Assembly (NCBI GenBank): GCA_020073525.1 | Contig: JAIQFA010000004.1 | Coordinates: forward strand, 1 to 64,000 | Direction of reading: 5' to 3' | DNA: 64,000 bases | From: Terriglobia bacterium | Lineage (GTDB): Bacteria; Acidobacteriota; Terriglobia; Terriglobales; Acidobacteriaceae | Shown: positions 28,724 to 33,724 of the stretch, piece after piece | Layout of the letters: every line of letters begins with the position of its first letter | Position numbering within the stretch: the first letter of the stretch is position 1 | Translations under genes and position numbers: made by a program | Notes under the pieces: model-generated | What the model was told of the DNA's origin: nothing | Databases searched by the model: none | What the model saw: only the letters and a program-made list of their open reading frames with translations

Positions 28724-29155
28724 CTACGCAAACACCTTCGCTTCGGGCTTCTGCGCCTCGTGCGGGTGCTTGTCGCCTCGGTACACCTTCAACTTCGTAA
28801 ACATCTGCTTGCCCAGTTTGTTCTTGGGAAGCATGCGCGACACGGCGTCTTCAATGATCAGCTCCGGCTTGCGCACCAGCCGCTTCTTCATCTCTTCCCC
28901 GCGAATTCCGCCGGGATAGCCCGTGTAATGGTGATAGATCTTCTGATCCGCCTTCATGCCGGTGATCTTGATCTTCTCGGCATTGATGATGACCACGTGA
29001 TCGCCGGTGTCGATAAACGGCGTGTACTTGGGGCTCTCTTTGCCCATCAAAATGCGGGCCACGCGCGAGGCCAGGCGTCCGAGCGGAAGACCGCTCGCAT
29101 CCACCACAAACCACTTCCGCGTAATATCCCCTTCTTTGGGGAAATAGGTTGACAT
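28724..29155 (-). CDS. rplM: 50S ribosomal protein L13
   Basis: The 143-residue protein starts [20 protein letters not shown] and has the L13 motifs [32 protein letters not shown] and [22 protein letters not shown] (seen as a continuous helix region). It is an early assembly protein of the large subunit. GGGAGA lies 6 nt before the ATG. It is the first gene of the rplM-rpsI-rpsB-tsf-pyrH-frr run and is preceded by a good promoter at 29278-29307. Confidence 0.97.
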
Positions 29156-29277
29156 CGGAAATCTCCCAGAAAATTAAAGAACGCGATGAAGACCGCTGAG
29201 TGCCCTAATCAATCTATCCACGCAGAAGGCGCGCTAGGTATTCCAGGCGGGCAGCCGCAGGACTTCCAAAGACATTT

Positions 29278-29307
29278 AGGATAGCCCAGCACCGGCGCGC
29301 TTGTCAA
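29278..29307 (-). promoter_or_regulatory. Sigma-70-type promoter of the rplM operon
   Basis: On the minus strand TTGACA (29307-29302) and TATCCT (29283-29278) are 18 bp apart, giving a leader of about 115 nt before rplM. The target duplication of the insertion element starts only 8 bp upstream of the -35 box. Confidence 0.6.
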
Positions 29308-29314
29308 CGAAGAG

Positions 29315-29322
29315 GTTCAGCC
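29315..29322. repeat. Left target-site duplication (GTTCAGCC)
   Basis: The 8 bases GTTCAGCC abut the left inverted repeat exactly and are repeated at 32207-32214. Confidence 0.9.
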
Positions 29323-29349
29323 GGTAGTGGGTCAGTTTGGTTTTCCACA
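29323..29349 (+). repeat. Left terminal inverted repeat
   Basis: GGTAGTGGGTCAGTTTG then GTTTTCCACA; 24 of 27 positions match the right end. The GGTxxTG start is typical of IS1-family ends. Confidence 0.88.
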
Positions 29350-29429
29350 GGTAAGGGGCTAGGATGTTAGCCCTCAAGCCGCGACCCGTCTTCCGGCCAA
29401 AAATCAGGCGGCTCCGTTGGAGAAAACGC

Positions 29430-30335
29430 GTGACTATTGCTGCTGGCTACCTTTGTGATACCGGGGTCATTATCTGTGCGGACACGCAAGAATCTATCCA
29501 GGGATTCGTCAAAACAAGCACTGAGAAAGTAAAGTTGTTCTCGGGTAGTTCCTACACGGTTGCTTTTGCTGGCGCTGGGGGCAACAGCGTTCAAATTGAC
29601 ATGGTGGTGCAGGAGATTTGCGACGAACTTAAGGAAGAAGAACCGCCATCGCTTGTGGGCTTTAAGGTTCTTTTACACGGTGTCTTGGACCGTCTGTTTC
29701 CTCAGCCCTATTATCCGAAAAACGATCCCGAAGTAGAACTGTTATTGGCAGTGAGGGAAAATCAGCAAACACACCTGTTTGTAGTCTTTGATAATGTCTT
29801 CGCCGAATCTACCGAATACGACTGTGTTGGCAGTGGTGTGGTGCTGGCAAAGTCCATGCTCCAACAGCACTGGAAACGTAGCTATTCTCTAGTAGAGGCG
29901 TACATCGTATCGGCTTATGTATTGTACCATGCGAAGAGATGGGTTGATGGATGCGGCGGCAAGAGTGATATTTTTCTTTTGCCCAATGGAACTGAAAACG
30001 TCACGCGTTTAGGAACCGACGAAATTAAGAGCCTAGAATCATACTTCGAACTGTTTGATTCTGCATTGCGTCCGTTGCTTATCGCCTGTCCATCTGAACC
30101 GCGAAATGACGCCAGGTTTAAGGATCAACTTGCAGATTCCAATCGAAACTTATGGGCAGCGCGAGCCATGTTCCAAGACTTTGAACAGGTATTTAAGCGA
30201 CTAATGAAAGAAGCGGGGATAGATGGAGAGAAAATGTGGGCCGAAGTCACTGAGTCTGTGGATCAACTACTTAAACCGCCATCTCCGTTCCCAGTGCCTT
30301 CGCCACCAGATTCTTCTCAATCACAGAAGCCTTGA
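29430..30335 (+). CDS. Proteasome-like Ntn-hydrolase (passenger gene)
   Basis: GGAG seven bases before the GTG at 29430 sets the start; the upstream frame is arginine-rich and unlike the family. The product is 301 residues and begins M-TIAAGYLCDTGVIICADT, so Met removal would expose Thr1, as in HslV. Asp17 and a Lys near 32-34 (STEKVKLF) fit the catalytic triad of beta-type proteasome subunits, followed by the FAGAGG strand. The C-terminal 100 residues have no counterpart in HslV. It may be a self-compartmentalising protease; no ATPase partner lies in the element. Its last 65 bp overlap the 3' end of the transposase gene. Confidence 0.7.
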   Translation: MTIAAGYLCDTGVIICADTQESIQGFVKTSTEKVKLFSGSSYTVAFAGAGGNSVQIDMVVQEICDELKEEEPPSLVGFKVLLHGVLDRLFPQPYYPKNDPEVELLLAVRENQQTHLFVVFDNVFAESTEYDCVGSGVVLAKSMLQQHWKRSYSLVEAYIVSAYVLYHAKRWVDGCGGKSDIFLLPNGTENVTRLGTDEIKSLESYFELFDSALRPLLIACPSEPRNDARFKDQLADSNRNLWAARAMFQDFEQVFKRLMKEAGIDGEKMWAEVTESVDQLLKPPSPFPVPSPPDSSQSQKP

Positions 30336-31164
30336 CCACAGGCTTTGGCAGTAACGCACACAGTTCCTCTATACTCCAAACGTGATCGGACAATCCCGAT
30401 TCCATCGCAGGCGTAACGCGCAACGTCTGATGCACGCGGCAGTAGTTGTAATACATGTAGTGCAGAGCAACGGAGTGGCGGTGATTGTCGGCTTTCTTAC
30501 TAAATCCGTTTGTTAAGCGCGTAAACCGACGCATCTGCATTCGCATTGTGAGGTTCTGGCGCTCTACGAAGCTGGTACTCACATGCTTCGGATCTGGGTC
30601 GCCGCTGACAACCTTCATGTCGCAGCCAATGCACGTCGCGGGAGAATAGCGCGTATCGTTCTCTGACGGAGCACCGTAGATTTTCTGCAATTGCGCGTAA
30701 TCAATATCGGCTCCGAAGGCGTTCTCAACTGCATCTAGATATGCGCGGTGGCCGTCCGTGGTGATCTGCACGCGGTTCCTAATTCGACTGGCGCAATCTT
30801 CCATGAACTCTTTCGCCCATCCGCCGTCGCGTCCGCCAACTAAGTACGAGACAACTAGTTTCGTATCCGCGTCGATTCCTACCCACGTCCAAATATCGCC
30901 CCAACCTTCCAGTTTCTTTTCCGCTCTGACGTTCTTCGCCTTCGCTCCGACGAAGCACCAGATTTCATCTGCCTGCAAACGGCGCACCTTGAGATTGCGC
31001 ACGGTGCGATTGTGGTAGCCAGCGCAGGCGCAGCCGATGTCAGCCAAGAGTTTTACGACTGTGTTCTTGGCGACTCCGGTCATGCGGACAGTGGCGCGAA
31101 TCGAACAGCCCTCAATCAAGCAGCTAATCACTCTGGCTTGGACTGTGGCGTCTAGGCGATTCAT
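30271..31164 (-). CDS. IS1-family-like DDE transposase
   Basis: The 297-residue protein has an N-terminal helix-turn-helix (EGCSIRATVRMTGVAKNTVV, as in InsA of IS1) and a catalytic core with Asp66 (QADEIWCFVGAKA), Asp137 (QITTDGHRAY) and Glu201 (FVERQNLTMRMQMRRFTRL). The DExWxFVGAKA and ERxNLxxRxxxxRxxR patterns are those of IS1 InsB. A single frame encodes both parts, so no frameshift is needed, unlike classical IS1. TTGACA-17-TATAAA ends 7 bases before the ATG, so the mRNA is probably leaderless. All catalytic residues are intact. Confidence 0.88.
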   Translation of the reverse strand: MNRLDATVQARVISCLIEGCSIRATVRMTGVAKNTVVKLLADIGCACAGYHNRTVRNLKVRRLQADEIWCFVGAKAKNVRAEKKLEGWGDIWTWVGIDADTKLVVSYLVGGRDGGWAKEFMEDCASRIRNRVQITTDGHRAYLDAVENAFGADIDYAQLQKIYGAPSENDTRYSPATCIGCDMKVVSGDPDPKHVSTSFVERQNLTMRMQMRRFTRLTNGFSKKADNHRHSVALHYMYYNYCRVHQTLRVTPAMESGLSDHVWSIEELCALLPKPVVKASVIEKNLVAKALGTEMAV

Positions 31165-31171
31165 ATTGACT

Positions 31172-31200
31172 TTTATACCATAGCCGCTTTAGCATGTCAA
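31172..31200 (-). promoter_or_regulatory. Transposase promoter giving a leaderless mRNA
   Basis: On the minus strand TTGACA (31200-31195) and TATAAA (31177-31172) are 17 bp apart. The start codon lies 7 bases past the -10 box, where transcription should begin. On the plus strand TTGACT (31166-31171) and TAGCAT (31190-31195), 18 bp apart, overlap it and could drive the gene at 31248. Confidence 0.65.
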
Positions 31201-31247
31201 GATCATTCTGTAAGACGCGAGGGATTTTAAGAAGCGAGGGGGGAAGA

Positions 31248-31604
31248 ATGGACGGTATAGCATTCATCAGCGCGGATGATTTTTTCTTGCTGCTGCAAGG
31301 CTGGCGCGAATCGAATTCACGGTTAAGAGTTAAGTTCCTCTCTACTGCATTACAGTTGTCAGTTTTCTGCGAGGTGCTAGATGCGCGGGATGGCCGCGTA
31401 GCATTTTGGATAGGCCAAAAGGAAAGCAAGAGTGCCGCCGATTTTAACGTCACCGGATGTCTTTTTGGTTTTCGGGATGTTAAAGCAAGTGAAGCGGGGT
31501 TGCCAGAAGGTGTAGAGGTGGAATCTGCGATTGAAGCAGTTCGGGATGACTTTGCCCTTCTCATAATGCTCCTCAAGTGGGATGATGTACCCGAAGAGGA
31601 ATGA
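31248..31604 (+). CDS. Hypothetical passenger protein, 118 residues
   Basis: The ATG at 31248 follows GGGGGGAAGA, which favours it over an earlier in-frame codon at 31194. The sequence is MDGIAFISADDFFLLLQGWR onward, with alternating hydrophobic stretches (LQLSVFCEVLDARDGRVAFWI) and an acidic C-terminus (LLKWDDVPEEE). There is no Cys pair, signal or membrane segment. I do not recognise the family. It reads away from the transposase gene from overlapping promoters. Confidence 0.55.
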   Translation: MDGIAFISADDFFLLLQGWRESNSRLRVKFLSTALQLSVFCEVLDARDGRVAFWIGQKESKSAADFNVTGCLFGFRDVKASEAGLPEGVEVESAIEAVRDDFALLIMLLKWDDVPEEE

Positions 31605-31674
31605 GGTATCACACATCGGCCACGGCTAGCACCGTGGCTTTTCTATTGCCATTAAACCATAAGGAGTCAAGCCG

Positions 31675-31887
31675 ATGATTCACGTCGAGTTCGCAATCCT
31701 GTTCCTGCTACTTGTGTGGATCATTCGCAAGCTGCCTAAGCCGTGGCTTGTGGATGCATCGCTGCGGAGGATCGTAGGACAGTTAAATCGGCTTGAAGCC
31801 GAAGCACGGCACGTTTCCTTGGAGCAGATTGACCAAGAGTTTGAGGAGTTCTACAGCAAACAAGCAAAACTGAAAGGATGGTTCTAG
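31675..31887 (+). CDS. Small membrane passenger protein, 70 residues
   Basis: AAGGAG eight bases before the ATG supports it. One membrane segment (FAILFLLLVWIIRKL, residues 6-20) is followed by a charged helix (LNRLEAEARHVSLEQIDQEF) that may form a coiled coil. Function is unknown. Its stop overlaps the stop of the convergent gene at 31884 by 4 bp, typical of tightly packed mobile elements. Confidence 0.55.
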   Translation: MIHVEFAILFLLLVWIIRKLPKPWLVDASLRRIVGQLNRLEAEARHVSLEQIDQEFEEFYSKQAKLKGWF

Positions 31888-32141
31888 GGCCGCTTCTTCC
31901 ACCGTGCTCTAGCAGCCTTCGCCGCGACCCTGGAACGCGCTGCCTTGGTCATGGTCTGAAGACGGCGCTTACCGCCGATCTGACCGCCCTTACGCCCTAT
32001 CGCAGCCATGTAGGCGGATAGATCAGTAGGCGGAACAGGCGTCACTGCTACAGGCTCTGGCGTATCGCTTGTGGACTGATCTACGATCCACTTCGCAAGC
32101 TGGTTTGGATCGCGTGGACGTTTTCCCTTGCCGATGGTCAC
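31884..32141 (-). CDS. Small basic KGG-like passenger protein
   Basis: I place the start at GTG 32141 (MTIGKGKRPRDPNQLAKWIV), since longer forms lack the family-like start. The 85-residue protein has a Pro-rich linker and a very basic C-terminus with AAIGRKGGQIGGKRR and KAARARWKKRP, resembling histone-H1-like or KGG-type bacterial proteins. It could bind DNA. The gene begins about 65 bp inside the right end of the element and reads inward, so its promoter may lie in or near the inverted repeat. Confidence 0.6.
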   Translation of the reverse strand: MTIGKGKRPRDPNQLAKWIVDQSTSDTPEPVAVTPVPPTDLSAYMAAIGRKGGQIGGKRRLQTMTKAARSRVAAKAARARWKKRP

Positions 32142-32179
32142 GAATCCATGATGCCACAGGCTGGATGCTAAAGCGAGGA

Positions 32180-32206
32180 TGTGGATATTCAAACTGACCC
32201 ACTACC
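32180..32206 (-). repeat. Right terminal inverted repeat
   Basis: Read on the minus strand it begins GGTAGTGGGTCAGTTTG and continues AATATCCACA. The adjacent duplication GTTCAGCC follows at 32207-32214. Confidence 0.88.
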
Positions 32207-32214
32207 GTTCAGCC
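32207..32214. repeat. Right target-site duplication (GTTCAGCC)
   Basis: Identical to 29315-29322. The bases outside differ, so the repeat is exactly 8 bp. Confidence 0.9.
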
Positions 32215-32276
32215 GGAAGGGGTTAACCACATCCCGTTGGTAAGGTGGCGTCCGCGGTCGCCACACCCCACCGTAC

Positions 32277-32606
32277 TCACCATTTCTTGAAAATGACCGC
32301 TACGGCCCCGATCATCATGGCAAAACCCACGAAGTAGTTCCACTTCAGCGGCTCCCTCAGATACAGCACGGAGAATACCGAGAACACGGTCAGGGTGATG
32401 ACCTCCTGGATGGTCTTCAGCTGCGCCGTCGTGAACTCGTAGGAGCCGACGCGGTTGGCGGGCACCTGGAAACAGTATTCCGCAAAAGCGATCAGCCAGC
32501 TGACAAGGATGACCTTGAACAGCGGTGCATGGCGATACTTCAGATGTCCATACCAGGCGAAAGTCATGAAGATGTTGGAAAGGGTCAGGAGCAGAATCGT
32601 GGTCAT
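32277..32606 (-). CDS. DUF486/DMT-type small membrane protein
   Basis: From the ATG at 32606 the protein is 109 residues with four membrane segments, starting MTTILLLTLSNIFMTFAWYG. It has the conserved FAEYCFQVPANRVGS motif and the REPLKWNYFVGFAMMIGAV tail of DUF486 proteins, a branch of the drug/metabolite transporter superfamily. The transported compound is unknown. An in-frame upstream extension overlaps hisC and looks spurious. Confidence 0.85.
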   Translation of the reverse strand: MTTILLLTLSNIFMTFAWYGHLKYRHAPLFKVILVSWLIAFAEYCFQVPANRVGSYEFTTAQLKTIQEVITLTVFSVFSVLYLREPLKWNYFVGFAMMIGAVAVIFKKW

Positions 32607-32665
32607 GGCGATATCTTGCCTGATTCCCGAGCACAGTTGCACCTGTCCAATTTTTAAGGAGGAAA

Positions 32666-33724
32666 CTAGCGGCGGGATTCCGCGATCGTCTCGCGGATCG
32701 CCTGTAATACTCCATCCATCTGGCTGGGTGTCCCGACTGTGATGCGCACGCATCCTTCGCAGCCAGGGTTTCCGGATGAATCGCGGACCAGAACGCCGCG
32801 CCGCCGCATCGACTCCACGAAGCGTTTCGCGGACGCACCTATTCGAACCAGAACAAAGTTCGTCTGACTCGGCCAGAAGTGCAGGCCCAACTCGTCGAAC
32901 AACCGCGCCAGCCGCTCGCGACCCTGCTTCACCTGGGCGACGTGATCGCGCACGAACGTCTGGTCGGCCAGCGCTTCTTCGAGACAAGCCAGCACAACCG
33001 AATTGACATTGAATGGCAGGCTGAACCGCCGTAGGTAGCTGATCTGCTCTGCCGCGCCGGTCAGCACCCCGAGGCGCAGGCCAGCGAGTCCGTAGGCTTT
33101 AGAAAACGTGCGCGCGACGAACAGGTTCGGATGGCGCGCCAGGTCCGGGAGTAGCGTCTCGCCGCAAAACTCGACGTAAGCTTCGTCGACCAGCACCGCG
33201 GCATCGGGCGCAGCTTCTGCAATCTTCAATAAGTCGGCGCGCTGGGCGACGAGGCCGGTGGGATTGTTCGGGTTGGCGATGGCGATCACGCGAGTGCGTG
33301 GCGAAATCCGGGCCAGTAAATTGGCCACGGGGAGCGCGAGGTCCTCGCCTGACTGGAGGCGCACGACCTTTGCACCCAGCGCCTCGCCCAACATCGGATA
33401 CATGACGAACGTGGGGTCCGCAAACAACAACTCGTCGCCGGCGCCGAGGTACGTCGTGAACAGCAACGACAGCGCCTCATCCATCCCATTGGTGAGCAAC
33501 ACCTGCTCGGGGGCAACGCCCAGGAAATTCGCGATCAGCCGCTCGCCAACTTCGCGCTCCGGATACAGCGAGATCTCCGCGGCCGAGAGCGAACGCAGTC
33601 GCGCCAGCACCCGTGGAGAGCATCCGGCCATGCTCTCGTTGAGATCGAGACTCAATCCGTCGCGGCCTACGATGGGCGAATGGCACGGGCTTAGGCTAGC
33701 AATCGACTCTCGCGGCTTCAGCAT
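32666..33724 (-). CDS. hisC: Histidinol-phosphate aminotransferase
   Basis: The 352-residue protein is a fold-type I PLP enzyme. It shows NGMDEALSLLFTTYLGAGDE, the substrate loop NPNNPTGLVA, the PLP-Asp/Tyr site LVDEAYVEFCGE and the PLP Lys in ARTFSKAYGLAGLRLG. This fits HisC, which makes histidinol phosphate in histidine synthesis; related aminotransferases for aromatic amino acids cannot be excluded. No other his gene is adjacent, which is common in this phylum. Length is typical. Confidence 0.88.
   Translation of the reverse strand: MLKPRESIASLSPCHSPIVGRDGLSLDLNESMAGCSPRVLARLRSLSAAEISLYPEREVGERLIANFLGVAPEQVLLTNGMDEALSLLFTTYLGAGDELLFADPTFVMYPMLGEALGAKVVRLQSGEDLALPVANLLARISPRTRVIAIANPNNPTGLVAQRADLLKIAEAAPDAAVLVDEAYVEFCGETLLPDLARHPNLFVARTFSKAYGLAGLRLGVLTGAAEQISYLRRFSLPFNVNSVVLACLEEALADQTFVRDHVAQVKQGRERLARLFDELGLHFWPSQTNFVLVRIGASAKRFVESMRRRGVLVRDSSGNPGCEGCVRITVGTPSQMDGVLQAIRETIAESRR

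Follow-up and report, generated by a model that had tools for sequence, protein, structure and literature searches.

A proteasome-like N-terminal threonine hydrolase is recurrent cargo of IS1-type and IS1595-type insertion sequence elements

We describe an insertion sequence (IS) element of the IS1 family from a Terriglobia bacterium (GenBank assembly GCA_020073525.1, contig JAIQFA010000004.1) that carries a proteasome-like N-terminal threonine hydrolase between its ends. The element is complete, 2884 base pairs (bp) long, and occupies positions 29323-32206 of the window, by which we mean the whole 64,000-nucleotide stretch analyzed here; both ends and a flanking target duplication were identified. 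The hydrolase belongs to a cargo family that recurs in IS1-type elements, in IS1595-type elements and in their remnants. A first-pass annotation of this DNA had regarded the hydrolase as unusual cargo: that it is cargo stands, while its standing as an isolated oddity does not. We regard the anatomy of the element and the recurrence of its hydrolase cargo as virtually certain.

Results

The window element and its relatives

The two terminal repeats of the window element are identical at 24 of 27 positions, including all of the outermost 16, and the ends were also reported as 28 nt at 89%. An exact 8-bp direct duplication, GTTCAGCC, flanks the element on both sides (Table 1); inverted ends with an 8-9 bp duplication are typical of the IS1 family. 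The transposase is encoded by an intact single open reading frame (ORF) of 297 amino acids (aa), which is convergent with the hydrolase ORF and overlaps its 3' end. It scores above the cut-off of PF03400 (29.0 bits vs 24.1) and below the NCBIfam IS1 equivalog cut-off (NF033558, 56 bits vs 100), and it is assigned to the IS1 family but not to that equivalog. Its motifs DEIW, TTDG, and SFVER we take to be the DDE triad. Classical IS1 has the insA/insB' two-ORF frameshift organization, a layout not present in the window element. The earlier claims of exact ends, an intact transposase, and a proteasome-type cargo protein (PF00227, 27.1 bits vs a cut-off of 22.4) were thus all borne out.

In public genomes the transposase search turned up 144 loci, and the best 80 were taken further; these relatives span many phyla, and relatives were also found in 71 of 150 family-level genomes. 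Among 110 transposase loci, 76 had paired ends and 34 did not, many of the latter being cut by contig or locus ends. Two repeats (L010 and L129) were dropped and no further near-duplicates were seen at 97%, leaving 74 elements, all picked by similarity to the window transposase. They measure 1085-6324 bp (median 3106), and 68 of them have an exact target duplication; in the 70 elements that have a duplication, exact or not, it measures 8 bp in 69 and 9 bp in one. The end-pairing score favored pairs having a duplication, and a random exact 8-mer match is expected about once in 65,000. Since the same kind of ends and size class recur in 74 elements, 68 with exact duplications, the element is more than a chance arrangement. 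Ends that vary independently of the segment would have spoken against the first-pass annotation; instead, ends and duplications travel with the element in those 68 of 74, and the same type of ends encloses different cargo, ten of the 74 carrying the hydrolase. These comparisons show a core made up of the two ends, the gene for the DDE-type transposase, and that for a small basic accessory protein, with cargo on both sides of the transposase.

Table 1. Features of the window element and its flanking duplications
Feature	Position	Strand	Evidence
Target-site duplication, left copy (GTTCAGCC)	29315..29322	.	Sequence repeat
Terminal inverted repeat adjoining hydrolase gene	29323..29349	+	24/27 vs other end, outermost 16/16
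Proteasome-like N-terminal threonine hydrolase, 301 aa	29430..30335	+	PF00227 E 3.8e-6; GTG directly before Thr
Single-ORF IS1-family transposase, 297 aa	30271..31164	-	PF03400 E 1.5e-6; NF033558 E 4.8e-15
Slot-A cargo ORF, 118 aa (or, with start 31194, 136 aa)	31248..31604	+	72% homologue in L157
70-aa ORF, doubtful gene	31675..31887	+	Open frame alone
Small basic accessory protein, GRKGG..ARW type	31884..32141	-	68/74 related elements
Terminal inverted repeat, opposite end	32180..32206	-	End pairing
Target-site duplication, right copy (GTTCAGCC)	32207..32214	.	Sequence repeat

The hydrolase: sequence, start, and predicted fold

The hallmark residues of proteasome-like hydrolases are Thr1, Asp17, and Lys33. 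In an alignment of 54 rows from 52 loci (none more than 90% alike; L188 and L217 each in two pieces) they are kept in 52/52, 52/52, and 53/53 filled rows, respectively, and the hydrolase looks enzymatically active from its sequence. It falls below the equivalog cut-offs for 20S beta subunits (TIGR03634, 31.7 vs 224; TIGR03690, 28.2 vs 191.9). The codon before Thr1 is ATG in 33, GTG in 18, and TTG in one of 52 filled rows, a Val in this position always being encoded by GTG, and GGAG stretches resembling a Shine-Dalgarno sequence precede it in many homologues. As all 52 rows have a start codon here, translation most likely begins at this position and no propeptide would be needed; HslV has the same start arrangement and no propeptide. 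The window frame is open upstream to ATG 29364, and this in-frame extension is probably untranslated. A propeptide or leader as the main start (the upstream frame is open, rich in P and R, and KPRRLP-like in several homologues) was rejected on account of the start codons at position -1. In the pair L187/L191 the nonsynonymous (dN) and synonymous (dS) divergence of the leader are about equal over 26 codons, which speaks against a translated leader. The start-codon reading does not account for the recurrence of the upstream leader.

The hydrolase is predicted to have a proteasome-subunit fold. An AlphaFold (AF2) model (seven sequences; mean predicted local distance difference test, pLDDT, 75; predicted template modeling score, pTM, 0.68) retrieved 20S beta subunits as the best Foldseek matches (1j2q_H), with Anbu entries among the first 50. 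The Anbu structures 5nyw, 5nyj, and 5loy gave TMt values of 0.70-0.73 at 15-16% identity, against a model whose pLDDT is only 75 and in which the C-terminal helices are placed with low confidence. No Pfam or NCBIfam match to an alpha subunit or ATPase partner was found for any of the five ORFs of the window element.

Recurrence of the hydrolase in two IS families

A hydrolase homologue is present in 10 of the 74 IS1-type elements. In each case it lies 3' of the transposase in convergent orientation, and the duplication is exact in eight of these elements. An eleventh element, L039, is truncated by a contig end. A minimal arrangement is seen in L120, in which accessory protein, transposase, and hydrolase fill 2349 bp between exact target-site duplications, with no further ORF of at least 50 aa among the gene calls (which were made longest-first in all elements, so that some are spurious). 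Two remnants, L186 (1067 bp) and L192 (1015 bp, ends 16/16), have IS1-type ends enclosing a transposase tail and the hydrolase, and no exact duplication.

Homologues are also found at seven IS1595-family loci (L121, L150, L185, L189, L190, L193, and L195). The transposase was assigned by Pfam in L121 and by similarity to L121 and L150 in the others, and some of the homologues score low on the hydrolase profile (for example L150 with 43 bits). The 8-bp duplication is exact and unambiguous in L121 and L189 and ambiguous in register in L150 and L195; in L185, L190, and L193 the ends are unpaired, and the link to IS1595 rests on adjacency. In a further 22 class-level loci, examined together with as much as 1.5 kb of flanking DNA (L198 and L199, which repeat L114 and L125, were excluded), an IS1 transposase was found in nine and an IS1595 transposase in five, some of them partial. 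None of ten rplM/hisC loci from the genus had an IS1 or IS1595 transposase (a small set of conserved neighborhoods, and a weak control).

At E 1e-5 the hydrolase profile matched 14 of 396 phylum genomes and 11 of 24 genus genomes, and at E 1e-10 it matched 39 of 299 class genomes, the genome of the window included each time; the genus match in G533 was not recovered in locus L196. The window hydrolase had no relative among viral contigs, and no hydrolase match was found on plasmids at 1e-5. At L122 (6505-9264) a homologue without a nearby IS1 or IS1595 transposase lies between RecA-like and SRAP genes, neighbors that allow a possible SOS link.

Exchange of hydrolases between elements

Between the window element and L125, 85% of residues are identical in the transposase and 81% in the accessory protein, and about 20% in the hydrolase. 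The sibling element L157, from the same genus and on the same contig as L039, is 92% identical in the transposase, 91% in the accessory protein (over 78 residues), 72% in the slot-A protein, and 30% in the hydrolase, and nucleotide similarity between the two elements drops at the transposase/hydrolase junction. In L187 and L191, both from genome G534, the hydrolase has a dN of 0.153 and a dS of 1.64, about five times the dS of the adjacent transposase (0.32 over the 160 codons present), with a dN/dS of about 0.09. In 60-base steps their identity is 65-79% in the hydrolase core and 80-100% on both sides save for one step of 63% upstream; the core is an island of divergence.

In the hydrolase tree a single clade of IS1-borne enzymes is rejected by the approximately unbiased (AU) test (p 0.0026), and IS1-borne enzymes are joined with IS1595-borne ones (support 98/96) and with an apparently unlinked gene (99/97). 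On a quick transposase tree, hydrolase carriage needs five changes. A single capture by IS1 followed by vertical descent is disfavored by the AU rejection and by these five changes. Rapid adaptive evolution is disfavored relative to exchange because, in the one pair measured, the increase extends to dS as well as dN, with a dN/dS of about 0.09. The comparisons thus favor swapping of hydrolases between elements under purifying selection, which acts on the hydrolase in that pair.

Other genes of the element and other cargo

The first-pass annotation had counted four passenger genes. Besides the transposase the element indeed has four ORFs, and two of them, the hydrolase and slot-A, hold as cargo. 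The small basic ARW protein is counted as an accessory of this IS1 group rather than as cargo because a six-frame search found it in 68 of the 74 related elements, in 61 of them near the left end and in the direction of the transposase. It is 85-102 aa long; in the window its ORF reaches TTG 32192, and the starts of homologues make a GTG near 32141 the probable start. The 70-aa ORF is doubtful as a gene: tblastn against L157 gave no homologue, and DNA identity in that region is 43-62%. The slot-A ORF had nothing above the Pfam cut-off and no family in NCBIfam or PHROGs. Promoter-like sites numbered four against 2.5 expected, and none was usable.

The other cargo, comprising 112 ORFs of 140 aa or more in 63 elements, often resembles defence or toxin-antitoxin genes. 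Within the 25 commonest families, counted as families rather than distinct proteins, PADLOC gave PD-Lambda-2_B (8), mad2 (5), and RmrA (4-5), and Pfam gave IrrE-type peptidase (8), P63C (5), N6/N4 methylase (4), and STAND ATPase (3). Genes for TIR and HicA toxin proteins accompany the hydrolase in two elements, L119 and L125. Three kinds of protease are seen repeatedly in the cargo, namely Clp (PF00574, two proteins), IrrE-type (8), and the Ntn hydrolase (10 elements). The ARW profile also matches six cargo proteins of 336-382 aa (L015, L018, L046, L063, L074, and L081), and P63C was seen for L015 and L018. On the accessory side of the transposase, 60 of 78 ORFs of at least 150 aa lie on the opposite strand, giving an alternating + - + order. 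The transposase was found in 20 plasmid records; among four that were read, some have helix-turn-helix (HTH) and RES-Xre type neighbors.

Insertion site and genomic setting

The window element is present once in its own genome and lies 167 bp upstream of an ORF that we take, from our reading of the ORF list, to be ribosomal protein L13. The search for empty sites suggested by the first-pass annotation was partly successful. The left flank is present in more relatives than the six in which it was read (G534, G535, G524, G536, G425, and G528). In two of these, G524 and G528, it continues as GAGGTTCAGC-GGCAAGGGGTTACC with a single copy of the target, resembling the window's GAGGTTCAGCC followed by GGAAGGGGTTAACC, that is, its right flank; in the remaining four, similarity is lost at the target or ahead of it. 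Gene order in the window region 28724-33724 is rearranged relative to the genus relatives G425, G528, G407, G522, and G532, in which several kb separate the rplM upstream region from a DUF486-like/hisC pair that is oppositely oriented. Since the duplication is intact despite this rearranged order, either the insertion postdates the rearrangement or the contig contains a misjoin. In G534, a decayed IS1-like end (AGTAGTGGCTGAGTTTGAAG, L163) is found immediately beyond the rplM upstream region, close to this intergenic position, a hint that the site may have been used for insertion more than once.

Discussion

Taken as a whole, the best explanation is a cargo-carrying IS1-family transposon with the hydrolase as an exchangeable conflict cargo, a reading we hold to be probable by a slight degree only. 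Its conflict part, which we put forward tentatively, comes from the company of the hydrolase among other cargo and from its exchange between elements. The first-pass annotation had suggested a role in host interaction, defence, or regulation, which is at present a conjecture; the neighboring cargo tips it toward conflict. In the fullest form of the proposal, which is possible but decidedly speculative, a minimal partner-free threonine protease would be a dedicated transposon cargo that moves between IS families, is retargeted by core exchange, and serves as a weapon of defence or rival exclusion. Methionine aminopeptidase alone would expose the Thr nucleophile. Because some elements have no recognized cargo besides the hydrolase, the enzyme may need no partner encoded by the element and either act on its own or make use of an unfoldase of the host. 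As a conflict gene product it would cleave a protein of a phage, of a rival element, or of the host, which would help the cell or favor persistence of the element, and its target would change whenever elements exchange the enzyme core.

Several observations weigh against this explanation. As to linkage, eight of the 22 class loci have neither transposase in their flanks, and re-reading of 14 earlier loci found the transposase absent in 12 (several of the loci being distant homologues); of the other two, L146 retains a 17-residue IS1595 tail at its 3' end, and a fragment lies 1.2 kb from L123. Loci without a nearby transposase indicate that the hydrolase gene can live outside such elements. Of the ten hydrolase-bearing IS1-type elements, L119 has one mismatch in its duplication and L114 has none. 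Convergence is not universal: orientation in 14 class loci is convergent in eight, divergent in three, and tandem in three; outside this set, L193 is tandem and L187/L191 are divergent. As to exchange, L187 and L191 come from one draft genome (85% complete, 5% contaminated) and are both cut by contig ends, and the hydrolase tree, which does not include copies found later, has long branches and leaves 10 of its 17 forks open. The 20S beta subunits also have Ser129, Asp166, and Ser169; Ser129 is not conserved among the hydrolase rows, and the positions aligned by eye with Asp166 and Ser169 vary, so that peptidase activity is not assured. The defence-like cargo counts are a raw tally, and PADLOC at E 0.01 gave no family for the window and L120 hydrolases.

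The position of the hydrolase beside the transposase, often tail to tail, and the single copy in the genome of the window would suit a governor of transposition, which would hold down copy number by degrading the transposase or the accessory protein of its own element. We consider this very unlikely, as the same hydrolase family accompanies two transposase families, the histories of hydrolase and transposase disagree, and the remnants L186 and L192 retain an open hydrolase frame with only a transposase tail. Use by two IS families, together with a diverged core between near-identical flanks in one pair, would be expected if the hydrolase destroyed factors of competing transposons or plasmids as a form of immunity; however, G257 harbors two different hydrolase elements and G534 at least two, and such inter-element exclusion is quite unlikely.

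A host-adaptive enzyme of quality control or peptide processing that merely hitch-hikes on the elements has somewhat more in its favor, namely purifying selection in the measured pair and copies without a nearby transposase, one of which adjoins a SRAP gene. Its patchy presence in phylum, class, and genus genomes and the distant hydrolase versions held by sibling elements argue otherwise, and we rate it as rather unlikely. IS cargo can be incidental, as is generally known, and the hydrolases might be functionless accidental passengers. Neutral capture of this kind is extremely improbable given the catalytic triad in all filled rows, the start codon in all 52, the low dN/dS of the close pair, and the association with two IS families.

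The window element is presumably akin to a single-ORF IS1 subgroup of the ISMhu11 kind (900-4600 bp), with which it would share an IS1-type transposase, 8-bp duplications, room for passengers, and GGTxxTG-type ends. From that subgroup the window group would differ in its accessory ORF (68/74) and in having cargo on both sides of the transposase. For IS elements with passenger genes (tIS), Siguier's work of 2009 reportedly concerned IS1595. The tIS are established (PMC7986276), and the window element likewise has passenger genes between its own ends; here one hydrolase family recurs in two IS families and is apparently exchanged.

The window hydrolase resembles proteasome-like proteins in its predicted fold, in Thr1/Asp17/Lys33, and, like HslV, in the lack of a propeptide; it differs in a C-terminal helical tail (modeled with low confidence), in the unconserved Ser129 and Asp166 positions, and in being IS-borne. 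Other cargo of the same IS1 group matches PD-Lambda-2, RmrA, Thoeris ThsB-like TIR, and HicAB, whereas the window and L120 hydrolases match none of them. In the survey by Fuchs et al. (2021), the proteasome-like family comprises 20S beta, HslV, Anbu, BPH, connectase, and 22 further clusters including WPH, with phage carriage reported for PPH and AAH; its main text contains no word beginning with 'transpos' (PMC8665760). Within the literature searched, some of it available in part, cargo-carrying IS elements and proteasome homologues are known separately, and we found no report of proteasome-like cargo in IS elements and no pairing of the two.

The finding joins uncharacterized proteasome homologues with the cargo of very small transposons. 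These natural units of about 1-5 kb, some without other recognized cargo, allow a single hydrolase to be tested for roles in defence, exclusion, or regulation. Since an IS1 group found in many phyla carries genes that resemble defence and toxin-antitoxin genes, IS elements of 2-6 kb merit attention as possible shuttles of such genes.

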